The notes beneath the pieces were generated by a model. The model was given only the letters and a program-made list of their open reading frames with translations. It did no database searches and was not told the DNA's origin. The position numbers and the translations under genes were made by a program. Shown here piece by piece: positions 19,554 through 47,700 of a stretch of 64,000 nucleotides of DNA; the first letter of the stretch is position 1; every line of letters starts with the position of its first letter. The DNA is from Malachius bipustulatus (taxonomy: Eukaryota; Arthropoda; Insecta; Coleoptera; Melyridae), in the NCBI GenBank assembly GCA_910589415.1, contig OU342630.1, positions 17,083,867 through 17,147,866 on the forward strand, written 5' to 3'.

Positions 19554-21866
19554 CAGGGTGATCCCGAAATGGCGGACACGGTATACAGGGTGTTGTAGAG
19601 GATGTTCAGAAAGACTGTAAATTTAAAACAAAAATTGTTTCCTCGCCTTCGTTACCGAGATATAGGGTGTCCGTTTTCTAAACTTTAAATCAAAACGGCA
19701 GTCAAATTTAAACAACCTCCACTGGCAAAGCACATGATTTTACATAACTATTACGATAGCGTTTGCTTTTTATTTTTATTATTATCGGGAACGGAATTAC
19801 AGGCATTCAAAGTTTACCTATTCCCTGAGTTCAACAAAATTTTTCAATGTGGCATCGTTGTTCAAATTCGAGCTCAACAATGCAACTAAAATAGATTTTG
19901 AATAATATTATCGGATATGTTTCCCCGCAACAATTATTATTTTGAACATTGTTGAACTTTCCATTTCATATGTTTCCATGGTAATATCTATCTGGGTATT
20001 ATTGTAGACCTACACATTATTTTTTCCTTAAGAAGGGTAGTGCAGTGTTGTGACTTTTTTTTCCACAAAAGTGTGCAGCGTCAGCAAAATGTAATTATTT
20101 ATTCATGAATGCCAATTACAGCTTCTGCGTAAGATTATAAAATCAGGGAATGTCGAATGCAACTGTAACGAGAGCTTGCAGTGCAAACGAAAGACAAAAG
20201 GTTGCTTCGGCAAAACGGTAAAGCTGCAAGAGAATATTTTATGACAAATTTCTCTAGAGATAATGATGTTGAATAACTTGAAAACCGAATCAAATACTAT
20301 CGGAGTGCTAGTTATTCCGCTGCTTTAATTCTTAAAGAGTTACACCCTTTATATAGGTATCTAAGGTAGATTAGGGATGCCAATTAGTTCCTCAGTACTT
20401 ATTAACTCGTTTTTCGCGAGTTCTTATTTATATTGTGCTACCTAAACTCTATGAAGAACTAATAAAAAATAGATTTAGGGTGATAGAGATGTTAATATGA
20501 TTTTCAAAGAATAAGTTATAATGTACAGATGTTTAATGATCAAATTATCTTTACATTTTACTGTTTAATTAAATCAATAATTATCCTGTCTTACTTTAAA
20601 AGCTTTGAATTGATATATGTATGTTTAAACAATTAGTTTGTTTAAAATAAAGGATCCTTTACTTTGTACAGCTTGGTACAATAATAAAATACTTCCGATA
20701 TTAATTTATATCGGGAAAGATAAAGTTCATGAGTGGTAATTAATTAATTCACTAAATAGCACTGATCTTCTAGTCGTTCCTCATCACGTTCGGTGAAATA
20801 AAATAAAGGCAACTTACAGTTTCCGGGATGAAGCTGATCGAGGTAAAACTGTCTTTATTTTGACAGTAAAAGGATATTAATAGCTCCTAGACTTTGATAG
20901 GGGTGGTGTTTAATCGGGCATTGAAGTCTCCAGAGAAAGCAGCAGGTGCAGAGGTGACGCCCTGACGAGACTCCTGGGATTGAATAGCCAAACAGCACCA
21001 GCACCGGGAAAATGTTCTGTTGTTGTTGAAGATCACCAAAACGTTGATTTATTTCACCTTGGATAAGTGAAAACGATGGAAGGATGAATTAGATAATAGT
21101 GGAGAAGAAAATGAGCGACGCTCCCTTTGTCTCCTAGTCCAAGATGGCTTCTTTGTTCACAATAGGCAATTAGTTCAGATATTAGTAAATACCGATGAAG
21201 GTAAGGTATTTACCAAAGATAAAGGTAACGATAAAGGTATAAGGTAAAGTTGAGATAATATCCCCAAAGCTAAAAATAAGTAATAATCGAATTAGAACCT
21301 ATTTTCAAAATATCCGTAATGGCGACTTACCCTGTACAACAGGCTTTCGTAAGGAACGGTCAAGAAATGAACTTTCTTGGTCGACAGATAAAGAGGAAAT
21401 GCTTTCAGTTCCGATGGGACTGGGTCTACGTCCGCCTTCGATTCGTGAAAGTAGAAATGTCACTGTCAGATACTGAAATCTGATTGACAGTTGACAACTT
21501 ATTTGGTTTGTTTGATTTCTTTTAGAAACAAACTGGAAAGAAATCAAACGAGAAAAGAGACACGAAACGCCATCTAGTAGTGAATTATCCTAACAGCATC
21601 AACCCTTGCGAGCCGAGACATAGTGTGGTAGCCAGTTCGATGTTGCGGTCTGTATTATAGGAAATTGTGGGGGACTGTAATTTTACAGTTCTCATCAAAA
21701 CAAAAGGAATCGTCTAAAGGAGAAAGAAAGTGACGTATAAACGTTACAAGTGGTCATATCTTCTTAAGGGAGCCATACTGGAGAAAACAGTAAATAAAAC
21801 TTAGAATCCTTAATCCACAATGGGTGCTGTGGTGCTGTCCGTGTCCGCCATTTCGGGATCACCCTG
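19554..21866. mobile_element. 2.3-kb TA-flanked DNA element without transposase
   Basis: The ends CAGGGTGATCCCGAAATGGC and their mirror are flanked by TA (19552-19553, 21867-21868). The left interior (GAAAGACTGTAAATTTAAAA) is shared with the degraded relative at 31932-33476. No transposase is found. The section 20760-21680 is different in composition (GC-richer) and may be a further nested insertion, which I could not delimit. Confidence 0.8.
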
Positions 21867-23503: not shown

Positions 23504-23507
23504 CTCA

Positions 23508-25055
23508 TGTAAGACGTAAATTGGATTCAATCTCATTCATTCCATATCGATAGGTATCGATATATAAAATCCAGTAGATATGTAACAACCGGTCGCTTTG
23601 TTAAGATAAACATCCGCGCGGATGCTGAAGAGTTAACATCCGTTGCGTGGAAGAAAAGGAAATATCCATATGACCCTACTTGACCGTAAGGCGCGGGGCG
23701 GGAAGTACCTACTCCCGATCAATCAGTAGTGCTTTGAAAGTAGTCGAGTGAGTTGGTGATCTTGTGTTTGTGTTTGGTGCATTCTGGCGTTCTTTTGTAA
23801 TAGATAACAGGTGAGTTGATTTACTCACTGAGTGTCCTATTCCTAAGATAAATAGAGTTAGGATGAGCAACAGAGAGTTAAGTAATCATGATTATTAATT
23901 GAGATCTAATTGAGAAAGATAATTATTATTATTAGCCTGTCTTAAGATTCGAAGTTAATGAGCTCACATCTATGTAGAGTCAAATAAGGAGAAATTAATA
24001 TAGTTTCTCAATAAGGAGAAACTGCATGCAAGCATGTAAAGCACGAATAAAGCATGAATAGGCATAGAGGTAAATCAGTGAAACACAGAATGATGATAAG
24101 TACTAATTGAGAGACAAAGATTAATGAGTGCTGAAGATGTCTAAATTGCTGAAGTGTTAAGGAGAAATGAGCGTTGATCGTAGAGTTCTAGTGGGCCTGT
24201 GTGGCATGTGCATGTGTTAGTTTGAGAGAAGGTCTGTAGCCTGTGAGGCTGAGAGCGGCTTGGTGGCCGAAGGCAAGTGATGCCTGTGTGGTCTGCATGT
24301 GTAGACCCGAGAGAGACCTGAGAGCGGCCCGTGTGGCCTGCGTGACCTGCATGTGTAGGTCAGAGTGGAGGCCAGTGTGGCCGGACTTTGTTCCGGGTGT
24401 GAAGGATCGAGAGGATGATCCTGCCGATCACCCGTGAGTGGTTTCGAACCGGGTGTGAAGGATCGAGAGGATGATCCTGCAGAACGCTTATGGTGGCCTG
24501 GGCGGGAAGGATCGAGAGGATGATCCTGCAGAACGCCCAGTGATCTTTAACCGGACGTGAAGGATCAAGATGGATCCTGCTGACCGCCTGGTGGTTCCCC
24601 GGGAGAGAAGGATCGAGAGGATCCTGCCAACCTCCCGCGAATGACCTTGAGATCGGAAGGACCGAGGTGGGTCCTGGTTACCACAGCGTGCCTTGGCGCC
24701 GTAATCCTTGGCAAGGCTACGATCAACGGCTTAAGAGCAAGATGTCTTAAGTAGAGTCTTGAGTCGAGTAACTTCAGCAATGACCTTGAACAGTGATTTA
24801 CGTATCTTCAGCAAGGTAATGTCAAAGCTCCAGAGAGAGGTTACCAAGAAGGCTAAGCGTTAGTGAATGATAAGCCTAAGGAAGCTTTAGGAGGAATAAG
24901 ACACTTATGCAAGTTTTAATCTTTAGGGAGTGAGGGAGTGAGCCGAGACGTCGAAAGGCAAGAGAAACGGTGAGTGACTAGAAAAACGACGGCCCTGACG
25001 AAATAAATTTGTGAAGTTACATGTGAGTAATTCTTTCCCTCTTTTCTGCGTTACA
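23508..25055 (+). repeat. 5' LTR (1,548 bp)
   Basis: Runs from TGTAAGACG to TTACA. It contains a TATA box (tatataaaat, about 23570), a 12-bp palindrome ATCCGCGCGGAT (about 23612), and a candidate initiator TCAGTAGT near 23720. The hairpin array is at 24194-24675. The 64- and 71-codon open stretches in it are by-products of low stop density in the GC-rich array, not genes. Confidence 0.93.
24194..24675 (+). other. Array of about 14 short RNA hairpins in the 5' LTR
   Basis: First block: seven or eight stems with GTG-containing loops: AGCC/GGCT at 24238, CGGC/GCCG at 24256, AGGCA/TGCCT at 24271, GGTCT/AGACC at 24290, GGCC/GGCC at 24326, TGACCT/AGGTCA at 24343, GGCC/GGCC at 24370. Second block: six units about 50 bp apart with inner stem AGGATC/GATCCT and GAGAG loop (24410 to 24675). 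Their outer stems differ but still pair: GGGTG/CACCC, GGGCG/CGCCC, GGGAG/CTCCC. GAGAG strings recur between hairpins. Likely role: RNA packaging, dimerisation or export signal, or DNA-level GAGA-factor sites. Confidence 0.75.
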
Positions 25056-25276
25056 GTTTTTCAGGAGTGGGATACACTTGGCGCCGCTGCTTCTCTTGTC
25101 TCGTACTCTTTCAGTTTTTTTGTGATTTTGTGTGCTAGTGACACTTATTGATATTCTTGGTTTCGTATCCGGTGCGGTGGTGACGTTTGGTGACGTTTAG
25201 CTGTGTGAACGGCTTTTGAGACAAGTTTGCTGTTTCTCTATTTTAATTTTTGTGACCATGTATCCCAGCTCGAGTC

Positions 25277-26017
25277 TTGGAAAACATAAAACATAGTGGG
25301 TGGAAGTCAGACCCGCCCACGGAGTTGAAGTCAACTCCGCCTACGGCGTTGGTACCGTTGGCCGAAACTGGTTCTGCTGAAGCAGGACAGACCGATGAAG
25401 TTGTTGGCAAACTGGCCGATGTTTTGAGTCGTGCTCTTCGAGATATGAGCTCTGGTTCTGGAGGTCCTAAGGTGGCAAAGTTTGTGGGGGCGGACGTGAT
25501 TCCGTATTTCGACCCCAACGATTTGAACCAAAATGTGGAGGACTGGTGCAATAAAGTGGAGGAAATCCGTGAAATGTTCCATTGGACAGAAGATATCACC
25601 ATCTTCAACGCTCTCTCCAAGCTTAGAGGGTTAGCAAGTGTCTGGTACAAGGGATTGAAAACAGTCAAGTATACTTGGTCGGAATGGAAAGAGAACCTTT
25701 GCTATTCCTTTCCAGTCCAGCGTGACTTCCATGAACTTTTGGAACAAATGATGTCTAGCAGGAAAAAGTCAACTGAGTCTTTTGCGCAATATTTTTATGA
25801 GAAGCAAGCTCTTCTGAATGCCTGCCGAATACAAGGGAGAGACGCCGTCTCGTGTATTATTGCGGGAATTTCTGAGAACCACATTCGAGCAAGTGCCAAG
25901 GCCGCAAATTGTTGCGACCCCGAAGCTCTTTTTGGTTACCTGCGAACTCTTAACGCTGAGGTAGCCGGACCAACAAGAACAACGGCGATCCAAAACTTCC
26001 AAGGTCGTGTTACTTAA
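25277..26017 (+). pseudogene. Gag fragment of the deleted LTR element
   Basis: A 246-codon open frame with the retrotransposon Gag core: FNALSKLRGLASVWYKGL, then EWKENLCYSFP, then STESFAQYFYEKQALL. This is the capsid-like domain that binds the RNA and builds the particle. It ends before the CCHC zinc knuckles, which are deleted; the next open frame begins 10 bp before its stop in another phase. Start chosen at the first ATG of the frame. The Gag is therefore truncated and probably unable to package RNA by itself. Confidence 0.85.
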
Positions 26018-28107
26018 ACGCAAGCAGGCACCACAGAACACAACGATTCATGGTTATGGAGGGGGAGTGGTTCCAGCTAAAGGAACTGTCGAATTTGATT
26101 TGACCATCGACAAGGTTTGCGTACCTACATCGGCAACTGTGGTACCCAAACATGGTCAAAACACGCCAATATTAATTGGACATCCAGTTACCGAAAATCC
26201 TGAAGTGGTCGTTTACAAGGACAGCGAGAATTTACAACTATTTCGGAAACTGCCACCGAGCACTGCGACAGGTGACGAAATTAAGAAAATCTCTCTTTGG
26301 CCCAAGGATTCGACAACTATTCCTGTTGGATTTTGGGGCAATATACCAGTACAAGGCAGAAACGAGTTTCAAGGGGACCTGTACGTAGAGGCAAGTATAC
26401 GTACCGGCGAAGAACAGGAGTATTGTATTCCTCATACCATCCTCACGATCAAGGAAGACGAACACGCGGTGTTGCCAGTCGTGAATCTGTCAAATGTTGA
26501 CTTACAACTCTCGCCTAAGTATCCAGTAGCCAGAGGTTGGCCTAGTCAACCTGAATCCGAGGGAGGTGAACGTGTATTCCGTATGATAGAAAAGAAGCGG
26601 AAAAAGTTTACAGCTCAAGATATTTGTTTTGGGCCGATTACAGCCGACGAACAGAAACAATTAGTCAATCTCCTGAACAAGTATAGAAACTGCTTTGCAA
26701 CAAGCACAGACGAACTTGGTTGTGCCAGGTCGACACAGGTTGAAATTGAGCTCGAAAATGACAAGCCCTTCAGACCATACCGGATGTCGAAGACTGAGCA
26801 AGAATGTGTAAGAGAAATCGTCGATGACCTACTGAGAAACGAAGTGATTAGGGAATCACATTCACCCTATTCATCGCCCATTTTATTAGTTCGAAAGAAG
26901 AACGGTGAACAACGGATGTGTGTTGACTATCGCAAGCTCAACAAGATGACCATTAAAGACCGATATCCACTACCTAGGGTGGACGACCAGTTGGATAAGC
27001 TGCAAGGAAGTGTTTATTACACAACCTTGGACTTGAGATCAGGCTACCACCAGATTCCCGTCGCAGAGAGCTCCAAGAAATATACAGCCTTCGTCACTGC
27101 CGAAGACCAGTTCGAGTATAATCGACTACCCTTTGGGCTGACGACTGCACCAAGTGCATTTCAGCGGCTCAGGTTTTGGAACCAGCTCGCGACATTGCTG
27201 CAATATATTTGGATGATGTCCTTTTGTTTTCAAAAACTGTGGCAGAGGGGTTGGAAAATTTGGAAAAGGTCCCGCATCTTTTACAACAGGAAGGCCTAAC
27301 CTTAAACCCCAGTAAATGTAAATTGCGAAACCCCTCACCGACTGAACAAAGAAAAGCTCAGAGTGGTCTTGGACTGAAAAGGAGCAAACTGCTTTTGAGC
27401 AGCTGAAGAACATTCTGATACAAAGACCGCTGTTAGCACTTTACAACCCGAAGGCAGCAACGCAGGTACACACGGATGCAAGTTCAAAAGGGTTGGCTGG
27501 TATTCTTTTACAAAAACAGGATGACGACACCCTACATCCCGTGGCGTACTATAGCCGCAAGACAACACCACCGGAAACAAAGTATCATTCGTATGAACTA
27601 GAAACGCTGGCGGTTGTGGAAACTTTGAAGAAATTTCGAGCCTACCTCTTGGGAATGGATTTTGTAGTGGTCACGGACTGCAACTCTTTGAGGACTAGTA
27701 ACTCAAAGAAGCCTTCAGGCAGAAAGGAAGGGTTCTTACACCCAATAGCAAAACCAGCTGCACCCATGGATATGCTTCATGTTGATCACTATGGTCCGTT
27801 GCCAAAAACAAGTCGAGGCAACGTCCACATCATCGTGGCTGTCGACGCCTTCACTAAATTTACGTTTTTGAAGGCCGTAAGATCAACGAACTCCAGATAC
27901 ACCATTCTATTTTTGGAGGGAATTTCCCAACTATTCGGGAAACCCCGGAGTCTAGTGACGGATCAAGGGAGTGCTTTCACTTCCAATAAGTTCTGCCAAT
28001 GTTGCGATACCTTCCAATGTGCATTCAGTGACTACTCAACGAGCCAATGGCCAGGGAGAAAGGTTCAAGAGGACAATGAAGTCGGCATTGTTACCCATGT
28101 GTCTTGA
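26007..28107 (+). pseudogene. Pol fragments (protease tail, reverse transcriptase, RNase H, integrase) with deletions
   Basis: Piece 1 (26007-27299) holds the end of the protease region without the active site, then the reverse transcriptase fingers (VRKKNGEQRMCVDYRKLNKM, TLDLRSGYHQI). Piece 2 (27176-27406, another frame) has the YLDD catalytic box, but a deletion removed the sequence before it. Piece 3 (27493-28107) starts within RNase H (HPVAYYSRKTTP), loses the RNase H end and the integrase zinc domain, keeps two integrase aspartates (DHYGPL, VTDQGSAF) and then loses the catalytic glutamate. At least four deletions make it non-functional. Confidence 0.88.
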
Positions 28108-28165
28108 GGAGTGCTGATCGGAGGACTAGGCAGCCTCGGGACGAGTCTGACGCAGGATGGCCGAA

Positions 28166-29713
28166 TGTAAGACGTAAATTTGATTCAATCTCATTCATTC
28201 CATATCGATAGGTATCGATATATAAAATCCAGTAGATATGTAACAACCGGTCGCTTTGTTAAGATAAACATCCGCGCGGATGCTGAAGAGTTAACATCCG
28301 TTGCGTGGAAGAAAAGGAAATATCCATATGACCCTACTTGACCGTAAGGCGCGGGGCGGGAAGTACCTACTCCCGATCAATCAGTAGTGCTTTGAAAGTA
28401 GTCGAGTGAGTTGGTGATCTTGTGTTTGTGTTTGGTGCATTCTGGCGTTCTTTTGTAATAGATAACAGGTGAGTTGATTTACTCACTGAGTGTCCTATTC
28501 CTAAGATAAATAGAGTTAGGATGAGCAACAGAGAGTTAAGTAATCATGATTATTAATTGAGATCTAATTGAGAAAGATAATTATTATTATTAGCCTGTCT
28601 TAAGATTCGAAGTTAATGAGCTCACATCTATGTAGAGTCAAATAAGGAGAAATTAATATAGTTTCTCAATAAGGAGAAACTGCATGCAAGCATGTAAAGC
28701 ACGAATAAAGCATGAATAGGCATAGAGGTAAATCAGTGAAACACAGAATGATGATAAGTACTAATTGAGAGACAAAGATTAATGAGTGCTGAAGATGTCT
28801 AAATTGCTGAAGTGTTAAGGAGAAATGAGCGTTGATCGTAGAGTTCTAGTGGGCCTGTGTGGCCTGTGCATGTGTTAGTTTGAGAGAAGGTCTGTAGCCT
28901 GTGAGGCTGAGAGCGGCTTGGTGGCCGAAGGCAAGTGATGCCTGTGTGGTCTGCATGTGTAGACCCGAGAGAGACCTGAGAGCGGCCCGTGTGGCCTGCG
29001 TGACCTGCATGTGTAGGTCAGAGTGGAGGCCAGTGTGGCCGGACTTTGTTCCGGGTGTGAAGGATCGAGAGGATGATCCTGCCGATCACCCGTGAGTGGT
29101 TTCGAACCGGGTGTGAAGGATCGAGAGGATGATCCTGCAGAACGCTTATGGTGGCCTGGGCGGGAAGGATCGAGAGGATGATCCTGCAGAACGCCCAGTG
29201 ATCTTTAACCGGACGTGAAGGATCAAGATGGATCCTGCTGACCGCCTGGTGGTTCCCCGGGAGAGAAGGATCGAGAGGATCCTGCCGACCTCCCGCGAAT
29301 GACCTTGAGATCGGAAGGACCGAGGTGGGTCCTGGTTACCACAGCGTGCCTTGGCGCCGTAATCCTTGGCAAGGCTACGATCAACGGCTTAAGAGCAAGA
29401 TGTCTTAAGTAGAGTCTTGAGTCGAGTAACTTCAGCAATGACCTTGAACAGTGATTTACGTATCTTCAGCAAGGTAATGTCAAAGCTCCAGAGAGAGGTT
29501 ACCAAGAAGGCTAAGCGTTAGTGAATGATAAGCCTAAGGAAGCTTTAGGAGGAATAAGACACTTATGCAAGTTTTAATCTTTAGGGAGTGAGGGAGTGAG
29601 CCGAGACGTCGAAAGGCAAGAGAAACGGTGAGTGACTAGAAAAACGACGGCCCTGACGAAATAAATTTGTGAAGTTACATGTGAGTAATTCTTTCCCTCT
29701 TTTCTGCGTTACA
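28166..29713 (+). repeat. 3' LTR (1,548 bp)
   Basis: Same length as the 5' LTR and offset by exactly 4,658 bp. The visible differences are a G/T near the start, A/C at 28863 and A/G at about 29287. The copy of the array here (28852-29333) keeps an additional intact stem, GGCC TGTGT GGCC, that is broken by one base in the 5' LTR. Confidence 0.93.
28852..29333 (+). other. Hairpin array in the 3' LTR
   Basis: Second copy of the structure at 24194-24675. Its first stem (28852-28864) pairs perfectly, which favours this sequence as the ancestral state of the element. Confidence 0.75.
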
Positions 29714-29944
29714 CTCAGAAACAGCACCGATTTTCATGATTCTGGTTTTCAAAAATTTCTCTTTTCATGTTATTTAAAATCAGCAACCTCTTGGAGCGGG
29801 GGCGATATATTATATGCAGGGTGGTCACTTTCTACTACTGGCTCACTTTTAGGAGCTTCTAAATCATTGGGAACTCCTAAGCCATTGGAGATAGACAGTG
29901 GGTTGGTTAAATTAGAGAAAAGTAATTTAATGCTTAAATAGAAT

Positions 29945-30470
29945 CTGAATTTTTCTTTGAATATTTCCAGTCGTTGCTGAAATATCCTGAAAAAACTGAA
30001 AAAACCAAGATTACTTATTTGTCATACCTTTTTTCTTTTTTATTATTGAAAATAACTTAATCAGTTATTGTAAGTTTATACATATGAGCCGCAAAGATTT
30101 TCCTAAAAATTTAAGCTGACTAGATCCCAAAGTTCAAAGTCAAGTTTTGTTTTTCTAATGGCCGCCATATTGATTTTTATGTCGATCGGTATGAGGAAAA
30201 TTGATGAAAATCAAATCAATGACATAAAAAACAATATGGCGGCCATTAGAAAAAAAATTTATTACAAAAACTCTGGGATTTAGTCGGCTTAGAAAATAAT
30301 CTGTAACGTCATGACGTTACAGAAATTTTACAAATGGATAGCTTTTGATGACTTTATGACCTACAAAAAACTATCAAGTTATTTTTTATAATAAATAACT
30401 TAAGAAAGATATGCCAAAAATAAAAAATCTCGAAGTTTTAGTTTCTTTCAGCATATTTCGGAATCCACTA
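29945..30470. repeat. Foldback repeat centred at about 30205
   Basis: Two arms of about 250 bp mirror each other around position 30205 (e.g. 'ggccgccatattg' left, 'aatatggcggcc' right). Half of it also occurs at 14114-14480. The segment 29718-29944 before it shares about 70 bp with the reverse complement of 31800-31880. Confidence 0.7.
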
Positions 30471-30599
30471 AAGTTGTACAAATTTTTATTTCAGATGATC
30501 ATTGTGAAAATTTTCTCTAATTTAACCAACTCTGTAGATTAGATTTTTTTTGAGTGGGCCATTGTGACACCTCCATTGCAACCGAAGGTGTATTGTGGC

Positions 30600-31930
30600 T
30601 CACGTCTAGTCGTGCTACATTAACCCCAGCTCAAGTCAAGATGGTCAGCTTCCTGAAAGAGGCTGACCATCTTGCCTGTAGTTAAAGTATCATCAGGTCC
30701 ACCGGTATGAGAAAGTCTATCTCGAAGGTTTGTAATCTGGTCTTTCAAAGCTGGACACTCACATAGGATAATATGTTTTGCTGTTTCGTTATCTTCCAAA
30801 CACAGGCGGCATTATATAGCAGCGCTGATTTCTAAACCCATCCTCTGCAGATGATGATTCAGCTTGCAGTGCCCATCAGTGTATATATAATAGACCTATT
30901 AGGGGTTTCAGTTCTTTTCTGTTAAGCTCCAATAGTTCTTTGGTCCTTTTTTTAGAAGTACGCTGTCTTCGAATGTCTTCGAATGGTCCAATCTTGGTAA
31001 GTTTTGCCAGTGCTCGAGGAAGGGGCCTCCAGGAAGAAGGACCCTCTCAGCCCAGTTTCGTGTTGTTGTTTTGGCAATATCCAGTGATATGTCAAATGCT
31101 GGTTCTGGTCCGAATCCAATAAATTCGGATTCGGCACCTTTCCTGGCCAGAGAGTCGGCAAGTGCGTTCTCTCCATATCCAGCGTGGTCCGGAATCCAGA
31201 TCAGAGTTACGTCGTTGCTTTTTGCTAGAGCATGCAAGGTTAGTTGACAGATCCAGACCAACTTGGACTTGCAGTGGCTGGAGCTAAGGGTTTTTAGAGC
31301 TGCTTGGCTGTCTGAAAATATCTTTATTGATCTGCGTTGGCAATGCATCTTTTCCTGCAACTGTGCACAGAGCTCTATGGGATAGATTTCTGCATGGAAA
31401 GTGGTTGCGTGAAGGCCCAGGCTCGAAAAGACTCTATTCTTCGAGCCGGCGCTACACACCCCAGTTCCAGTTTCTGTGGATGTCTTAGATCCATCGGTGA
31501 ACCAACTGAAATCAGCTTTCAGGAGTTCATTTCTGTTGTCTTCCCACACGTCTCTTCTCGGAAGAAGGGTCTTATAAGCAGAGCGGTTCATGATTGTCTT
31601 AGTCATTATGTCCGAGGGCATTCCCGGTAGACTGTGACTTTCTATGTCATTCAATAACCTGGTTCACTCCAAGTAATAAGCCTTTGGCAAGCTTCTTGCC
31701 ATCTGTTTGTTTCTATATATAGTATGTAGTCCATATCTGGCCTCTTCTCTCCAAATTAGTATGGAGAGGTGGTAAAGTCCAGTAGGATCTTCATAGCCGC
31801 CGACGTAACCTTTGCGCCAAGATGTTTCTGATTTTAAATAATATAAAAAAAACTTTTTAAAACGCAGAATCATCAAAGTCGGAGCTGTTTCTGAGGACTT
31901 CCGAGTAAAAGGATTCATTGACGCTACCAT
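30600..31930 (-). mobile_element. LINE fragment (LOA/R1-like): RNase H and C-terminal knuckle
   Basis: The minus strand encodes, in order, a region downstream of the reverse transcriptase (31930-31664), an RNase H domain (31654-30908) and a CX2C...HX4C knuckle (30860-30640: CRLCLEDNETAKHIILCEC, after one stop). The reverse transcriptase is missing (5' truncated or cut by the element at 31932). Confidence 0.8.
30908..31654 (-). pseudogene. LINE RNase H domain
   Basis: The 248-codon open frame contains the RNase H pattern: FSWFTDGSKTSTETGTGV (first aspartate), FHAEIYPIELCAQL (glutamate), KIFSDSQAALKTL (aspartate) and IWIPDHAGYGENALADSLA (the usual PGH is PDH; the final aspartate is present). 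It belongs to LINE ORF2 and would remove the RNA strand during insertion. No initiator is expected, as the domain is internal to a longer polyprotein. It is a fragment, although the frame itself is intact. Confidence 0.88.
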
Positions 31931-31931
31931 A

Positions 31932-33476
31932 TAGGGTGATATTCATAAATTAGCAACAGCTGTGTCAGGATGAGGACTATTATTTGACGAACACGTTATT
32001 CATGGTGTTGTAAAGTATGCTCAGACAGCCTGTGAATTTAAAACAAAAATTGTTTTCTCGGCTTCGTTACCGAAATATACGGTTTCCTTTTTCTAAAATT
32101 TAAATCAACCTGACAGTCAAATTTAAACAACTTCCACTTCCAATAAAACACATGATACCTACTACGATAGTATTTCTATTTTTTTTTTTTTATTATCGGA
32201 AACGGAAATACAGGCATTCAAATTCTGCTTATTCCTTGAGTTCAATTAATTTATCAATGTAGCATCGTTTTTCGAATTCAAACTTAAAAATGGAAGTAAA
32301 ATATATTTTGAGTATTATTAGATATATGTATCCCCGCAACGATATTGGTTTGAAACTTTTTTGGACCTGCCAATGTTTCCAGGATAACCTCTTTCTGGGT
32401 ATTATAGACTATTCTTCTTCCTAAAAAAGCGTATCCAGTGCAATGTTGTCAATTTTTTTTTTCAACAAAATTGGTAAGGCAAGCCATGCTGGAGAAAAAA
32501 GTTCATGAAGCTCTAAACCACAATAAATATACTATGCGTGTTCGCCCATCTCGGGATCGAGCGATACCGAGTTGGGCCAAGAATTTTGTTTGTTGTTAAT
32601 TCCACAGCTCAGTTGGACGAAAAAGATATATGAGGGGATTATTACAGATAATTAAACATAACTGACCTGATAAGAAATACCTGCGAGGCCTTTCCCATTT
32701 ATATAGCAGTGTTGTCAGATTTATTTTGGGTAATTGCTACTTGTTTGAAACTAAAGAGTGGCTATATATTCAAATAAGTTTTATGCCATTTACAATTCAC
32801 GGGATTGTTGCGAATAGTATTGACGAATTATGATTTGTTAGTAACAAAATCATAATCTTTCGTGTTTTCCATATTTTCATGTTGAAATGATTATTACTAT
32901 TCTGCATTACTATAAATGCATATTATAGATATGCAAACGACTCATCCGTTTTCGTGACAATTAGGGAATATTTTTGACTAAAACAACAATAATTAATTGT
33001 TTATCGAGGCAGTTCTATAATACAACTTTCTGTTATTTCTCAGTTTAAAATATAAACATCTTGAAAATTTACTCCAAAGGTAACAGTTTTTCCAATTTTC
33101 TCAAAGACAACTTATTGGCCAATCGAAAATCTAATATAAGTATAGAAATTGATTATTGAGTATAGTGTTGATTACTTTTTATGGTTTTTTTTACTATAGC
33201 AGCGACCGGGAGCTTACAAAATAATACATCAAGTATTATAATAAAAGTATTTATATTGTTTATTTTTATTTAATGTAAGATTACTAAATTTCTGTTAAAT
33301 ATGGAAACGTAGCATGCAAGTGACCCGGAAAATAATCAATCAAGTCTCCATTGGCTTCAATGGTTCCTCGAAACTCCTTAGCTCAACTGAGTCCTCGGAT
33401 AAAAGAATCCCCCCTGAATTCAGAAAGTCGCTCAGGTAATATGGCCCAACTCGTAAACGCCGTCGGGATCACCCTG
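31932..33476. mobile_element. Degraded relative of the 19554-21866 element
   Basis: The left end TAGGGTGAT and right end ATCACCCTG are one-base-off versions of the CAGGGTGAT ends. The left interior (acagcctgtgaatttaaaac) matches the 19.6-kb copy, and a second internal 'tctcgggatcg' is seen at 32550. No coding capacity. Confidence 0.7.
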
Positions 33477-35714: not shown

Positions 35715-38700
35715 CTGCAAAATAGTGTAAGTGAAAATCACGGTAAAGGCCTGTAAAATACGTGTGATTTTTCGAGCAAGACCCAAAGAATTTTAAATAC
35801 AATGAATGCTTTACGTTAATGTTTTTGCTATTTGTACAATGATTGCAAATCATGAATTATTGTTGAATGTTTGAATAAATAATATTTTCAAGCATTCGTC
35901 AACAATTTTAACTAATCAAAATAGGATACCAATAAAAAGTAGTGTATTTTTTTATTAAAAAATACAGTATAAGATCAATAAATAAAATATATAAGCAGTT
36001 TATCTGTTAGGAGCAGTGTGAGTTAGTTACTTGTTCAAGAATACCTACCTATGTACCTTTTGAACGGAGGTTATTAAAAAAGGTGAGAAGAGAATAAGAA
36101 TAGTGTTGGTGATGATGAATGTTGCTAAAAGAATGACAGCAAATAAATACTGTTATTATATAGTATTTTTGATGACATCCATTCTTGCTTAATTGACATA
36201 TTATGGTACCTCATTCACGAATAAGACGAGTCCAAAGACTCTCAACTATAAATCCGGACACTCTCCCCTAAATCGAACTGTAATGTTCTTATTTTAATTA
36301 AGATGATTATTAATATATGTTTTATTATTTAAACTAGGTAAATTACATAAATAAAAGGTAACACTTTACGAGCATGACGTTGGGTTGGAACTGTGTTTTA
36401 GAACTGACAAAAATGGCGTTATTGCCAAGGTTACCAAATCACGTCACACGCCCCTTTTAACAGAGTACATTATTATGGTATTGTTTACAATAATTAATGT
36501 TAATATTAAACAAAGTAAAATAAATTTTTACCAGCAAAAAGATAATTAAATGCATACTAAATTAAACATGCAGAAAAACAAATTATTATTCAAAGATCAA
36601 ACTTCTTAGGAGGTTTACTTATTCTACCACTTCGCTTGTGTAAACACATTTTTCAGTTTTTTCTGTTTCTTTGGTTTCTGTTTCTTGATCTTTTTTTACT
36701 TCTCGTTCTCTTTCAATAACTCTTCTTTCCTCTCTAATAGGAGATTCATGCTTTATCCGAGTTTTAGTTTCTTGCTCGTTTTCTTGTTTCTCATTCTCAT
36801 CTTCCTCAAACTCTGTTTTATACGGTCTTATATGCATTCTGTTTCGTCTATAGTTGGTGTCATTTACTTGAACAGTATAGTCTCTTGGTCTGTTTATATT
36901 TACTACATGACCCGGTTTCCAGTTTCGAACACCATCTTGAACTAACACTTTTTGACCTTTTGCAAGTTCGGGTAAAGGTTTTGTTGTTTTATTATATCGG
37001 CACTGTTGTTTACTTTGTTTTGATCTAAGTTTTTCCTTGATTCCCTTTGTTGAATATTTTGGTTTTAATATTTCTTTATTTACAGGAAGCGTAGTTCTCA
37101 GGCATCTACCCATTAGTAAAATAGAAGGAGCTGGAAGGTCTTGTTTTGGTGTTGTATTGTAGTTCAATACAGCAAGAAATGGATCTTCTTTATCTCTATA
37201 CGCCTTGACAAACAATCCTTTCACCGTCTGTATGGTCCTTTCGACCATTCCGTTGCTCTTTGGATATAGTGGGCTTGATGTTGTTAAATTAATATCATAT
37301 TTCCTTGAGAAATTTTGAAATTCTCGCGAGTTAAAGGGTGGACCATTATCTGAAAATATTTCCAATGGAAGGCCATATAACGTAAATACATTTTTCAAGG
37401 ATGATATAACAGTCGATGCATTTTTGCTCGCCAGTTTGTTTACTATGGTAAACTTGCTAAAATAATCTACAATGACTATATAATCAGCCATTTCTACATG
37501 CATAAAATCAACTCCAATTTTCTCCCACGGTAAGTCAGGTGGTTTATGACTTTTTAATGGTTCTTTTTGATTACTTTTGGAGTACATTTGGCAAACGGAA
37601 CAATTAAGTACCAATTTCTCAATATCGAAAGTAATTCCAGGATAATACACAGCCTGTTGTGCTCTCTTCTTACAGGATACTACTCCTTGGTGTGATTGAT
37701 GGATAAGATTTAAAAATTCATCTTTTAAGGCCTCTGGGACTACTAATCTTTTTTGATAGAAGATGATATTCTTATGAATGAAGATTTCGTTGCGAATATG
37801 CCAATACTTCTTAACTGAAGGTGGACTGACACTGCTTTTGTGCTGTGGCCAACCATTAAGTGTATAATACTTAACCTTCTCCAGTGTTTCATCTTCTTCG
37901 ATCGCTTGTAGGAGTCTTTTCTCATTTTCAGTTGAGGTCGAGATTACTGAAAATACACGTAGATTATCATCCAAATAATTGGTATTCATTGTGTCTTTTG
38001 TAGGACTTCTGCTTAATGTATCCGGCACCTGTAAGTTTTTTCCAGGTACGTATTCAAGTTCAAATTGATATCGTAACAATTTCAAAGTTAATCTTTGTAT
38101 TCTTGGTGACATATCATCAATTGGTTTCTTTAATAGACCAATCAGAGGTCTGTGGTCTGTTTCAAGTTTGAATCTTCTACCATATAGGTAATAGTGGAAA
38201 CGTTCGCAGCCAAACACCAATGCCAACAATTCTTTATCAATATGGTTGTAACGCTGCTGAGTCTGTGTAAGAGAAATTGAAGCAAACTCCACCGGTTTAT
38301 TCTCTTGAGCTATGACAGCACCAATGCCATATGGACTCGCATCAACAGACAGAGTTACTTGTTTTTCAGGATTGAAATAGGTTAACGTTACATCTGCAGC
38401 AAGCAATTCTTTGATATGTTTAAAGCTGTTTTCTTCAGTTTGTGTCCATATCCACTCTACCTTCTCACTAAGTAATTTTCTCAATTGACTCGTCGCTTGT
38501 GATAAGTTAGGTATAAACTTAGCTAAATATACTACCATACCTAAAAATCGTTGAAGTTCCTTTTTATCTTTTGGAGATGACATGTTTCTAATTGCTACTA
38601 CTTTATTTTTATCCGGTGAAACACCATTGCCGCTAATTTCATGTCCAAGGAACTTGATTTTAGGTACACAAAATTTGGACTTTTCCAAATTTAAGGTCAT

Positions 38701-41700
38701 GCCACTCTTTCTGATTTTCTCCAATACTAGGCTTATCCTTTGATGATGTTCTTCAATGGTACTTCCATAAACTAAAATGTCATCGAAGTATGCTATTACC
38801 CCAGGAAGACCACTCAACATCTCATGTATAAAATGTTGAAATATTTCAGGTGCAGAAGTAAGCCCGTATGGCAATCTCAAATAGCGATACCTTCCAAAGC
38901 TTGTTGCTATCGTACATAGTAGGGAACTTTCTTTTTCCAATGGAATCTGTAGAAATGCCGAAGATGCATCTAGTAAGCTGAAAACCTTGGCTCCAGATAA
39001 TTGTGAAAATAAACAATCATACGTTGGTATTTGAAAAAACTCCCTCTTCACATATTTATTAAGGTTACGAGGATCCATGCAAATTCGGATGTCACCGTTG
39101 CTTTTGGGGACCACCACTATAGGATTGACCCAGTCTGTTGGTTCAGTTACAGGCACCAAAATTTTTTGTGATACCAACTCATCAAGTTTTTTTTTGACTC
39201 TGTCCCGCAAAGATATTGGTATTTTTCGGGCGGCACATACGCTCGGTTCAGCATTTGGTTTCAGAGTAATCTTCCACTCTATTGTCTCTGTTTATTATTT
39301 CAGTCACTATTTTAGTTTTAATTATGTTGAAATGTTCTGCCGCACTTAAACCTAAAATGGATTTAGGCATACTTTCGTTTAAAATATAGAATAGAAGTTT
39401 GTTCCTTTTACCGTTATATGAGCACCACAAATAAATTTGTCCAAGTATATTTATTTTATGTCCCGAGTATGAAGACAAAGACGATGCTACATTTGAAAGT
39501 TTCTCCACACTAATTTTAAGAGAATCAAAATCATCACGGTTTAAAATGTTGACATCACTTCCAGTGTCTATTTTCAAGTTTATTAGACAGTCATTAATTT
39601 TGATTAGTTCAAACCACTCTATTGATCTTACAACAGTATTGTTTACTGTCCAAACCACTTTTTGATTATTAAAATTACTATCACTGCCTTCTGTACTAGA
39701 GTCAGTATCACTGTTCAATTCATCTTGCATAATTTCATGCACATTAGATTTTTTAGGGCACATTTTCCGATAATGTCCCTGTAGTTTGCCACCAGAGCAA
39801 ATTCGATAATAAGCTGGACACTTTCCTTTAACATGTTGCAAGTCACACCTCTTGCACTTGTAAGCAAGATTAGTTAATTTATTTTGGTGTCTAGTGGAAC
39901 GCCAATTATCACTTGTACGATCAACAGTTTCACTATATTTATTTGGTTTGCTAGTTGAAGCACTAACACTATTTTTAGAGAAATGTCCTCTACTTTGTTT
40001 ATAATTATTAATTGTACTCCCATTAGACTGATTTATTTCTTTTTGAGTTACTACACTACTTTCCATTGATCTAACAATATCAATTGCTTCATTCAATTTT
40101 AAATCAGAATGTTGAAGTAGTTTTTCTTGTATTCGTGTATCACGAATACCTAATACAATTCGGTCACGTATTAGCACGTCTTTTTCTTTAAATTCGCAAG
40201 TTGAGGCTAACTGTCTTAGCGCTGTTATAAATTGATCAACTGTTTCATTAGGAAGCTGATCCCTTTTAAAAAATTTAAAATGTTCATACACCAAATTTTT
40301 CATGGGGTCACAATACTTTTGAAATTTATCCAAGACAACATTTAATTTTGTTTTGTCTTCATCTTCTCCATACTCAAAAGTATTATAAACTTGTAATCCT
40401 TCAGTACCAATTTGGTTCAGCAAAATGGCGATTTTCACATCATCATTTTTCTCTACCTTACCACTTGCCAGCAGGTAAAGTTCAAATTTTTGTCTCCACA
40501 GCTTCCAATTACTTGCTATATTCCCTTGAAACGAGAATTTTTCAGGAGATATGTATTGCTCAGACATTATTCTTGTTTATTCTTTAATATTAATTAATCA
40601 GAATCAGAATAACCACTATTGCTTGTTTGAGTTCCTCCAGCGAAAATTATTAAAACTCATGCTTCTGGTTCATTTTCGCTTGCTCTCCCATACACACAGA
40701 ATGATTGTTCTCGTCCTTGTTGTCGCGATATTTTCATCACGCACTCTCAGCACACGTATTATTACGGGTTGTTTACGTTTGCTTTACCTTTTTACACCGA
40801 TTATTTAGTAATTTCACTTTTACCAGCTGCCACCATGTAATGTTCTTATTTTAATTAAGATGATTATTAATATATGTTTTATTATTTAAACTAGGTAAAT
40901 TACATAAATAAAAGGTAACACTTTACGAGCATGACGTTGGGTTGGAACTGTGTTTTAGAACTGACAAAAATGGCGTTATTGCCAAGGTTACCAAATCACA
41001 TACGACAAGTTTTACAGCGCCATCATGCGGTAGTGGGTATCACTTATTATTGTTAATAAACATATTGCAGACTTTGTTATTTATTGTTGTACTAATTCCC
41101 AATAGTAATGTCATCGAGTTTTTATTTCAGTGTTGATATTTAAAACTTACGCCATGTTGCAGCAAATAAACCTCTTCGTGTCACTCACATCCGTTTGGCC
41201 AAGCTGCTGTAGTTGTCGTCGATCAACACAATGCATAAAATATTGAAGTGTCTGGTATTGTAGTTGAGCGTATTTGGCGACTCTATAGATTTGTTGTTAT
41301 TAGCCAGAGACTTGTTATTAAGTTGAAGGCAATAATGATCTTCGCCATGAGGAAATATAGTTTTTTCACATTATTTTGAACACATTTAAACGGTAACTAT
41401 ATGTCTCAAACTGCACATTTAAAAAAAATGATTTGGGGCTGCAAGTTATTCCCATCGGGATCCTTCCTTGGTGACGGATAGGGGAACGACTTCCTTTATG
41501 GATGTTACCGGGAAAATCAAATACCCAAATACCCGCGGATGACCAAAACTAGCAAACCAGATGGTAGAGGACATACATAAACCTACAGAGCCTCACCCTG
41601 GGCTTCTCTTGCTGCTTAAGCGATGTGAAGTTGCTTTGAAGAGCTGACATTTCGTTTCTGTGTCAGGGATTCTGGTCCATAGAGTGAGAAAGAACAATAT

Positions 41701-44700: not shown

Positions 44701-47700
44701 TCAATCCCAGTGTGTCCTGGTATCCATTTGAGGTGGATTTTGTTCTCTCTGCCTAGTTTATTGAGTTTTTGTAGGCAGTTCCATGCCATTTTTGAGCTGA
44801 TAGGAGAGCTCAGCGTCTTTATGGCTGCTTGACTGTCTGTCAGTATTGCTATTTCCCTACTTTTATAGTTTCTGTCGAGGTTTATTTGGGCGCATACTCT
44901 TATTGCGTACAGTTCGGCTTGAAGTATGCTTGGGGATGTTCCCATTGGCTCGGAGTAGTTAGTTGGTGCCTATCCCATTTGTTTATTTTTATCGCTAATG
45001 TTCCGATTTTCATATCAGTAAAAAGTGCACAATTTCGACTCACAAGCTGTTTTCTCAGAAATTCCCTTATTTAAGGTTACAAATTGATTACATTACCATA
45101 TTGGCAATTAAATGAAGTATCAAAAAATGGAATAAAAAATAAGGGTTGCTGTTTAAAAATAATGCCGATGACGTCACCACTTTTTCGCGCATCACCCTGT
45201 ATACCCCAATATTATGTCAAAAGTTGAACAACTCAAAAACAAAATCGACCTGTTTTTTTATTTTTTCAAAAAACAGCGCTTTTCGGTTTATCGAATTCAT
45301 TCCTTACTTTTCTCGCGCACTGTATAACTCAAACGCAATACACGATCAGTTCTTCCCTAAAAATATACTCATACCATATAAATTTTAATGTGATAGCTTT
45401 AAAATTGCGACCTGTATTTTGTTTACAATGTTGAAAAATTTGTGATTGAAACAAAAAATTGAACAGTTCATTGTGGAAAAAGAAATCAACCTCGAAATGA
45501 ACAATAATATACTTTTCCAATAGACTTATTAGATACCGACCTCAATTATTATTCTTCTTCACATCACATCATCAATCTCAATTTCAATCAGTGGTAAACT
45601 TGTACGCAGTATATACCTTAATGACATGCTAATATTTCAGGATAATGAAATTCCTTTGGGCCATTTTATGGAGAAAAGTTAATACTGTATGTCCACAACG
45701 GCTTAAATTTTCTGCTAAAGCGGGTGTTGATTTTTTCTTTTTTAATAGGTTTTCTTATTATATGCGAAAGTAGTTTAGATATTTTTTTTCAATTTAGGTA
45801 GGTACCTATGTGTCATTAGGATATAAAATCACATTCTTTAACTGTATACATATAAAATACGCTAATATAACTCATCGTTCAATAAGTCCCGGGATTAACT
45901 ATGAAAACAACATTTTACCGGCAAAATTCTGTATTATTCATCAAAATAATCTCCTTCAAGTGTAATACAATCATTCCAACGCTTCTCTAACTTTTCAATG
46001 CCATGTTTGTAGAACGATTTTGTCTTTTGACTCAAAATGAGCCTCAGTAGCAGCGATCACCTCCTCATTCGAGCCAAATCTTTTTCCCTGGAGCATCTTT
46101 TTGAGATCCGCGAAGAGCCAGTAGTCGCTGGGGGCCAGATCCGGCGAGTACAGAGGATGGGGAAGCAGTTGGAAGCCCAATTCATTGAATTTGGTCATCG
46201 TTTTGATTGACTTGTGGCACGGTGCGTTGTCTTGATGAAAGATGACTTTCTTCTTCTTCATGTGTGGGCGTTTTTTTGCTATTTTGGCCTTCAAACGATC
46301 CAATAACACCGTGTAGTAGTCGCTATTGATGGTTTTTCCTTTTTCGAGGTAGTCAATGAAAATTATACCATTCGCATCCCAGAATACGGACGCCATCACT
46401 TTGCCGGCCGACTGTTGTGTTTTTGGACGCTTCGGGCGGCTTTCACCGGTCGTACGCCATTCAGCTGACTGCCGACGTGACTCCGGAGTGAAATAGTGAA
46501 TCCATGTTTCGTCCACTGTCACATATCGACGCAAAAAATCCTGTTTATTGCGACTAAACAGTGCCAAACAGCTCTCCGAATCATTGATACGTTGTTGCTT
46601 TTGTTCCATTGTGAGCAAACGCGGCACCCATTTGGAAAAAACCTTTTTTATAGCCAATTTTTGGTGCAAAATAGTAAATGCACTACCAGTTGATATATTC
46701 ACCATCTTAGCTATCTCGCGCACTTTCATTTTGCGGTCACCCAACACGATTTTCAATACTTGCTTGGTGTTTTCGGGAGTTACTGCCTCATTTGGCCGAC
46801 CCGAACGTTCCGCATCATTTGTATCAGCACGACCGCGTTTGAAGTCAGCATACCACCGACAAATGGTTGTTTTCGACGGAGTAGAGTCCGGATAACGTTT
46901 TTCAAGCCATTGCTGAGCTTGAACAGTATTTTTTCCCATTAGAAAACAATGTTTTATCAACACACGAAACTCGTTTTGGTCCATTTTTTCACGATTTCTC
47001 TATAGCTTTCTTGGTTATGCTTCGAATTACATCATAGACCAATGCCCGTATTCACAAACGATAATTTCCTAAATAATTACGTAATCAATTATATCCATCT
47101 CACTCTATTGAAAAAAAAACTGCATATCTCCATCTCACTCATTTAATTAATTACGTAATTATTTAGGAAATTATCGTTTGTGAATACGGGCACTAGAATA
47201 TAATGGACTGATAGTTGTCAATGCTTTACTGTACTAAGTTTGTTGCCAGTGTAAGGTAGGCAACCAACATTTCTTGTAAGGGCAAAAACTACTAAATAAT
47301 ATGGAGAAATAATACGAAATTCAAATTTTTTGTTTTTATTACACATATTTTATAGGAAGAACATGGTTATTTTTAAAGATTAAGAAAATAAATGTATAAA
47401 AATTATAATAACACTTTATTATTTGTTTTTATAGGGTAATTCTAATAGAATAATAGAATAACTATTTATTACAATTATACAGAGATAAAATGTTTCACTT
47501 ACCTATGAAAAGATATATCTGTTAATTTTGATACACGATTTACACAATTATAAGCTGCACAAGACTGAACCATTATTAATATTAAATTTTAAATCGACAG
47601 AGAAGATATTTAAAGTAAATATAAATATGCTTAACCAGTATGGATATTAAAAGGAGATCTATTTGTTATACACCTACAATTTCCATACAAGGCCAATAAT

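Follow-up and report, generated by a model that had tools for sequence, protein, structure and literature searches.

What kind of signal, if any, is formed by a dense array of small hairpins inside the 1.5-kb long terminal repeat (LTR) of a beetle retrotransposon? The array lies at about 24194–24675 of a 64,000-nucleotide window, the whole stretch of Malachius bipustulatus DNA analysed here (contig OU342630.1, positions 17,083,867 to 17,147,866 of the forward strand), and belongs to a Ty3/gypsy-type LTR retrotransposon at 23508–29713. An initial annotation, made from the letters of the sequence, had divided the array into two successive kinds of stem-loop. Of the six second-kind units, five show the layout of a standard kink-turn, namely a helix, a 3-nt bulge GCN, GA facing GA and a second helix. 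This layout is repeated along the array and present in 50 copies of the LTR, where the sites that define a kink-turn are constant and those that it leaves free have drifted. On balance, we favour reading the array as a modular RNA structure with four to five tandem kink-turn stem-loops in the inferred repeat (R) region of the LTR, probably recruiting proteins of the SNU13/L7Ae family.

Kink-turn layout of the tandem units

All six second-kind hairpins with an AGGATC-type core that had been listed by the initial annotation are present; what had gone unrecognised is that units 1–5 read, in order, outer stem, x-GA, AGGATC, loop, GATCCT, GCN-GA-y and outer stem. When these are set against the kink-turn definition and folding rules in the part of PMC8191799 used here, the inner stem corresponds to the canonical (C) helix, the GCN of the 3' strand to bulge positions L1–L3, the GA facing GA to the tandem sheared pairs, y:x to position 3b:3n and the outer stem to the non-canonical (NC) helix. 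The units are the following.

24394–24434, plus strand: kink-turn-like unit 1; outer stem CGGGTG/CACCCG, U-GA, AGGATC/GATCCT, GCC-GA-U; 3b:3n is U:U.
24451–24489, plus strand: kink-turn-like unit 2; outer stem GGGTG/CGCTT (three G-U pairs), U-GA, GCA-GA-A; 3b:3n is A:U.
24498–24540, plus strand: kink-turn-like unit 3; outer stem CTGGGCG/CGCCCAG, G-GA, GCA-GA-A; 3b:3n is A:G in the window copy.
24551–24591, plus strand: kink-turn-like unit 4; outer stem CCGGACG/CGCCTGG with A x C at the third pair, U-GA, GCU-GA-C; 3b:3n is C:U.
24600–24637, plus strand: kink-turn-like unit 5; outer stem CGGGAG/CTCCCG, A-GA, GCC-AA-C in the 5' LTR.
24658–24675, plus strand: unit 6; an AGGACC/GGTCCT hairpin only, with no GA on the 3' side and no comparable outer stem, not a kink-turn.

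The earlier description of outer stems that vary and still pair holds for GGGTG/CACCC, GGGCG/CGCCC and GGGAG/CTCCC, and has to be qualified for the G-U pairs of unit 2, the mismatch of unit 4 and the missing stem of unit 6, where the reported swap of the core to GGACC/GGTCC was correctly seen. In unit 5 of the 5' LTR, a private G>A change at 24629 loses one GA; the 3' LTR has the intact GCC-GA-C, and GA is also found there in 38 further copies.

A strict scan for the kink-turn pattern returned three matches on the plus strand of the 5' LTR and four on that of the 3' LTR, none on the minus strands of the LTRs and one in the other 60.9 kb (both strands), while shuffles of the array gave a single match in 24 of 2000 cases and never more. 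A loose scan, the only one to take unit 4, returned five and six matches in the two LTRs (one of each outside the array), nine elsewhere, and one or two matches in 142 of 2000 shuffles. A loose-scan match is located at 23872–23907. A sixth candidate kink-turn, suggested by a relaxed scan in the first-kind hairpin at 24343–24362, was rejected as a probable chance match because its TGA and TCA pair in Watson-Crick fashion.

Searches of the beetle's own genome (544 Mb) scored the best 40 of 221 and the best 40 of 224 candidates, and the LTR copies are accordingly the best-matching ones. The set of 50 LTR sequences comprises the window's two LTRs, 38 further copies and 10 more diverged copies (81–85% identical to the second query), representing 41 insertions after collapsing of LTR pairs and identical rows. 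Five units were present in 43 of the 50 and four in the other seven. Unit 6 was not included in the counts of units, which imposed no condition on GA in the 40-copy set and omitted units whose 3' side had neither GC nor GA in the 50-copy set. GA was found on each side in 195 of 196 units (40 copies), unit 5 of the window's 5' LTR being one exception; across 50 copies, the two GAs were found in 241 and 242 of 243 units and L1L2 was GC in 242 of 243. Position 3b:3n occurred as six types in the same set (C:U in 90 units, A:U in 72 and A:G in 23 of the 243) and L3 as all four bases (C/A/U/G), with -1b:-1n being U:A in every insertion counted.

Of the 45 loop sites in units 1–5, a kink-turn leaves 15 free and fixes 30 (the core sites). 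Changes common to at least two insertions affected 5 of these 15 and 0 of the 30 (p = 0.0025); private changes numbered three at free sites and four at core sites. The bases G1b, G2n and the L1 guanine, which L7Ae-type proteins contact (the last of them in the Kt-7 complex) according to the part of PMC4316175 used here, are constant in the units. We regard the units as probably genuine kink-turns.

Position of the array in the element

The element combines LTRs bounded by TG...CA, a short target-site duplication (4 bp, CTCA, at 23504–23507 and 29714–29717), gag and the order reverse transcriptase (RT), RNase H, integrase, which place it in the Ty3/gypsy group. Pfam profiles RVT_1, RNase H and integrase core (rve) exceed their cut-offs, and Retrotrans_gag falls below its curated cut-off. 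The interior is broken, with pol pieces in separate frames and deletions relative to other copies. The two 1,548-bp LTRs differ at three positions by blastn, and the array is repeated in the 3' LTR, as had been reported. The parts of the element that bear on the array are listed below.

23508–25055, plus strand: 5' LTR, TGTAAG...GTTACA, 1,548 bp (sequence and blastn of the LTRs).
23561–23569, plus strand: TATATAAAA, a TATA-like candidate promoter (sequence string).
25002–25007, plus strand: AATAAA, a candidate poly(A) signal downstream of the array (sequence string).
25256–26017, plus strand: gag-like open frame (Retrotrans_gag, below cut-off; Pfam).
25965–28107, plus strand: pol pieces in separate frames (Pfam).
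28166–29713, plus strand: 3' LTR with the second array copy, offset +4658 (sequence and blastn).

The TATA-like string TATATAAAA was found in 25 of 40 copies, some of the copies being truncated there. Given its position at 23561 and that of AATAAA at 25002, the unique 3' (U3) region would be short and nearly the whole LTR would be R, which suggests that the array falls in R and hence near both ends of the element RNA.

Packaging signals typically contain repeated hairpins close to the 5' end of the genomic RNA, and the array might be a packaging or dimerisation signal, in which the element's own Gag or nucleocapsid would recognise a row of stable hairpins that have purine-rich internal loops; the kink-turn appearance would then be incidental or architectural only. 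An open frame with a CCHC knuckle, as this explanation would want, is present in copies L052 (C7) and L057 (C4). The array, however, lies approximately 400–900 nt upstream of a primer-binding-site (PBS)-like sequence at 25079 and in both LTRs, whereas the retroviral signal sits between the 5' LTR and gag, and binding by Gag would not obviously require that some loop sites be constant and others free. We consider this explanation unlikely, although it is the main rival and may coexist with a role for L7Ae-family proteins, since K-turn elements are mentioned for two packaging RNAs, the SL-C hairpin of Moloney murine leukaemia virus (MoMuLV; PMC7599994, in part) and the leader of human immunodeficiency virus 1 (HIV-1; PMC4598872, in part).

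Splice-like sites around the array bear on another explanation, control of translation or processing, whereby the array would be a structure resembling an internal ribosome entry site, a repressive structure in the 5' leader, or an intronic element removed by splicing. A strong donor-like site, CAG/GTGAGT, lies upstream of the array at 23811 (in 38 of 40 copies), and its joining to a polypyrimidine acceptor ending at 25056 would splice the array out. The same acceptor fits a second donor (ACG/GTGAGT) at 24970, downstream of the array, which would give a short 87-nt intron and keep the array exonic, and control of this kind is improbable in our estimate. The candidate intron at 24970–25056, at the end of the 5' LTR, contains AATAAA and a polypyrimidine tract and runs to the TTACA of the LTR end. 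The donor-AATAAA-tract pattern is complete in 37 of 40 copies; in the 8 of 40 that run on into the PBS-like TTGGCGCCGC, the first internal base is G and completes the acceptor TTACAG, while at 29 other matched LTR ends the next base is variable (G in seven). Splicing of this intron would take away the poly(A) signal of the 5' LTR and leave that of the 3' LTR.

Of 19 relatives given by a protein search with gag, 17 belong to a source marked lgn; of the other two, one comes from ena and the other from the beetle Aromia moschata. No gag relatives and no exact core were found in viral contigs, and five single matches to a gapped core in those contigs were judged to be due to chance. Part of pol (window internal 2269 to 2664–2681) is absent from four of the six copies with interiors examined (L052 and L053 on C7, L054 on C13 and L056 on C14), in which the gag region matches; this common deletion suggests that deletion derivatives spread in trans. 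A BEL/Pao element (Peptidase_A17, DUF1759, DUF5641) interrupts the family copy L057-L058 (C4).

Elsewhere in the window, a second gypsy-type element occupies 36279–40999 on the minus strand, with 164-bp LTRs that are 100% identical and long open frames, one of which encodes RT, RNase H and integrase; this short-LTR element is probably a recent insertion. A same-strand repeat of about 500 bp, 77% identical, lies outside the array-bearing element at 19570–20073 and 31985–32473, and a mariner-type transposase frame (Transposase_1, HTH_48) is located at 45995–46999 on the minus strand.

Hairpin density, stem pairing and strand

The hairpin array was verified in both coordinates and sequences. Perfect hairpins found by a greedy scan of 24194–24690 numbered 14 at a stem length of at least 4 bp, compared with 7.3 (standard deviation (sd) 2.1) in dinucleotide shuffles, 11 of at least 5 bp compared with 2.1 (sd 1.4), and seven of at least 6 bp compared with 0.5, each of these counts being reached by 0 of 300 shuffles. 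Allowing G-U pairs removed the excess at 4 bp (17 versus 17.4) and left some at 5 bp, where 10 of 300 shuffles did as well; at 6 bp the excess was clear. Within the 64 kb, no 480-nt stretch is denser in hairpins than the array and its copy in the 3' LTR (11 versus a mean of 4.2). Other tested regions had a much smaller excess than the array; the LTR upstream of it (eight stems of 5 bp versus 3.9) and the flank at 30000–32000 (10 stems of 6 bp versus 3.7) were above most of their own shuffles. A coding role was ruled out by indels of 1, 2, 5, 8 and 22 nt common to at least two copies.

The first-kind half of the array had been described as separate stem-loops with loops that all contain GTG. 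The hairpins exist, and the one at 24381–24396 has no GTG in its loop; missed until now was their arrangement into a branched junction plus a long hairpin.

24194–24206, plus strand: first-kind hairpin 1, GGCC(TGTGT)GGCC, with GGCC in the 3' LTR; in the 5' LTR a private base changes this to GGCA and breaks the stem.
24230–24319, plus strand: branched junction closed by AGGTCT/AGACCT (24230–24235 with 24314–24319; folding and copy comparison).
24325–24384, plus strand: long hairpin on GGCC/GGCC and TGACCT(GCATGTGT)AGGTCA, local folding -36.4 kcal/mol.

The junction encloses hairpins at 24238–24250, 24256–24269, 24271–24285 and 24290–24307. The long hairpin includes short alternatives at 24326–24338 and 24370–24382, with folding preferring the GGCC blocks paired across it over GGCC mini-hairpins. 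The GCATGTGT loop does occur on two different complementary stems, GGTCT/AGACC and TGACCT/AGGTCA, as had been claimed. Between AGGTC and GACCT, other copies have one or two modules of two hairpins, AGCCT(GTG)AGGCT plus CGGGT(GTCG)ACCCG or near variants, and in two-module copies the predicted fold pairs the arms of adjacent modules. The differing number of modules between copies indicates that in the evolution of this half structural modules are gained and lost as wholes.

The observation from which an RNA role had originally been argued, that pairing is kept while sequence changes, was confirmed between units inside the array. In seven unit sequences, 89% of outer-stem cells were paired and eight cells were changed on both sides, each value being reached by 0 of 500 shuffles; the number of pairs changed on both sides (three) was reached by 56 of 500, and that of further pair types (nine) by 38 of 500. 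Among 39 distinct arm pairs from the 50 copies, 214 of 234 outer-stem cells were paired, compared with 196.5 on average and 207 at most in 5000 re-deals of the 3' arms, and the fifth pair was seen as UA, UG, CG and AU. Orthologous cells were paired in 98% of cases, compared with 27–51% when partners were slid. Counts of shared and private changes in the 50 copies omit five four-unit copies at 24438–24545, and those of stem changes and transversions additionally omit rows of the other first-kind lineage at 24252–24311, homology being unclear in both cases. Stems took few transversions: private changes comprised 40 transitions and seven transversions in stems, and 33 and 24, respectively, in the remainder of the array (p = 0.003); the corresponding shared changes were 13 and two compared with 22 and 15 (p = 0.10). 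That the array is an RNA structure under selection is likely.

Several results weigh against this reading or leave it less secure. Stem changes in related LTRs, set beforehand as the refuting test, gave a divided outcome. Shared changes in the 50 copies kept pairing in 11 cases and broke it in four (11 and two in 40 copies), while private ones kept it in 24 and broke it in 23, as expected of dead copies (17 and 14 in 40 copies); both-sided orthologous changes were seen at three pairs (24398–24430, 24499–24539 and 24500–24538), no more than in controls with slid partners (0–3). Folding energy was below that of shuffles on both strands (z = -3.9 on the plus and -5.85 on the minus strand), with 60-nt windows mildly low on either (mean z -1.0 to -1.7), and so does not pick the strand. 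An A x A mismatch in unit 5 is common to one lineage, the A x C of unit 4 is constant, and unit 6 is without the kink-turn motif. Unit 1 of copy L033 resembles unit 2, apparently by conversion, and the units arose by duplication and seem to convert each other, so that descent accounts in part for the constancy of GA, GC and inner stem, and some of the shared changes are not independent. The Rfam look-up proposed in the initial annotation gave no match above gathering for the array, and known Rfam RNAs, as well as the selenocysteine insertion sequence (SECIS), were rejected on this basis.

Wobble pairing was also used as a strand test. In 40 copies, stem transitions as a whole were 25 wobble-keeping to 10 wobble-breaking (p = 0.017 against 1:1), a ratio that the array's other sites predict as 27.5:15 (p = 0.48) and the bias in the rest of the LTR as 28.4:22.6 (p = 0.06). 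For shared changes in the same copies, the ratio was 10:1, the figures for comparison being 6:11 at the array's remaining sites (p = 0.006) and 50:32 in the LTR outside the array (p = 0.09); with 50 copies, the asymmetry was 9:4 compared with 11:11 (p = 0.31) for shared changes and 21:19 compared with 9:24 (p = 0.03) for private ones. Since the asymmetry fits the background bias and loses significance at 50 copies, the wobble test does not settle the strand, a further point against an RNA reading.

Some of these results speak for a further explanation, in which the array would be a DNA feature or a plain duplication, with tandem hairpin-prone copies or dyad-symmetric protein sites and no RNA role: folding of the minus strand is equally favourable, orthologous covariation does not exceed controls, transition bias at neighbouring sites explains the wobble asymmetry, and private stem changes behave as in dead copies. 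Against this, non-Watson-Crick cells in the outer arms of the 50 copies are mostly G-U on the plus strand (36, compared with 13 A-C and seven others). A unit of copy L040, ACTGGGTG/CGTTTAGT, for example, has eight paired positions of which four are G-U, and is a palindrome as RNA and not as DNA. The GA/GA, moreover, lies outside any dyad, yet it ranks with the most constant features. An explanation of this kind is, in our judgement, improbable, slightly more so than control of translation or processing.

A predicted protein platform and its known relatives

The favoured kink-turn reading leads to a specific proposal, in which the units would serve as binding sites for L7Ae-family proteins of the host (SNU13/15.5K, or possibly RPL30 or NHP2). 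SNU13/15.5K is taken as the first candidate because it is abundant and nuclear. That a protein of this family binds the units in the host is a tentative prediction, to which we give slightly less than an even chance. As stated in the part of PMC8191799 used here, folding in metal ions is weakened by U:A at -1b:-1n, impaired or prevented by a Watson-Crick 3b:3n and helped by C:U and A:G at 3b:3n, while L7Ae folded all four kink-turns tested; folding of the U4 kink-turn needs or gains from protein (PMC5061560, in part). With their U:A closing pair and, in many cases, Watson-Crick A:U at 3b:3n, the units are predicted to fold poorly in magnesium alone and to find protein necessary or much helpful, as does U4.

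Several bound proteins, together with the adjoining branched first-kind module, might then mark full-length RNA for retention, export or packaging. In its fullest form, a kink-turn platform at both RNA ends would load several copies of SNU13 (or another L7Ae-family protein), and the element RNA would mimic a small nucleolar RNA (snoRNA) or U4 nuclear ribonucleoprotein and thereby control retention, export or packaging; this scenario is rather doubtful, and any given downstream role of the array is, taken singly, unlikely. If the proposal is true, it would represent a new route by which mobile elements enlist RNA-binding proteins of the host, and a tandem LTR set kept in 50 copies despite drift of the outer stems would be nature's counterpart to the L7Ae/kink-turn switches used in synthetic biology.

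Known kink-turns occur singly, in ribosomal RNA, riboswitches, snoRNAs and U4. The earlier statement that no described signal has this shape is fair for the array as a whole and does not extend to the unit, whose shape is a known motif; what appears to be new is its tandem use in an LTR. No tandem kink-turn array in an LTR was found in titles and abstract starts of the listed open-licence papers on kink-turns with retrotransposons, LTR/endogenous retroviruses or packaging signals. The units have the sequence features that define a standard kink-turn: C helix with L1–L3 bulge, G1b-A1n and A2b-G2n, NC helix, free 3b:3n and variable L3. Standard simple kink-turns (Haloarcula marismortui Kt-7, the U4 5' stem-loop, box C/D) have C helix, 3-nt bulge, G-A and A-G, and NC helix in the same order; the units differ in forming a tandem set of five within a retrotransposon LTR and in having U:A at -1b:-1n in place of the common C:G (as in HOLDH; PMC8191799, in part). 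The A:G at 3b:3n of unit 3 is as in Kt-7 and the U:U of unit 1 as in box C/D. A:G is also given for drum, HOLDH and RAGATH-18 (PMC8191799, in part).

Box C/D snoRNAs have the same type of motif as the units and possibly the same protein, SNU13/15.5K. They carry a C box (RUGAUGA), a D box (CUGA) and a flanking guide; identity with such a snoRNA was rejected, as the unit sequences are without a C/D box pair around a guide and no Rfam snoRNA matched above gathering. The LTRs of Cassandra, Helenus and Ajax (PMC10886601, in part) resemble the array in having a structured RNA sequence embedded in an LTR, and the four-base target duplication is shared with animal Helenus in the same source. A tRNA- or 5S-derived LTR was rejected here, with ARAGORN (bacterial settings) finding 0 tRNAs and Rfam no match above gathering for 5S; unlike those elements (PMC10886601, in part), the window element is no miniature and has the long LTR of a gag-pol family. 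Retroviral packaging signals are similar in that several hairpins lie in the 5' genomic RNA of MoMuLV and of the HIV-1 leader, with K-turn-like bends mentioned in both (in the parts of the sources cited above). In contrast to these, the array would lie inside R of both LTRs and consists of tandem copies of one unit with the standard GA/GA layout.

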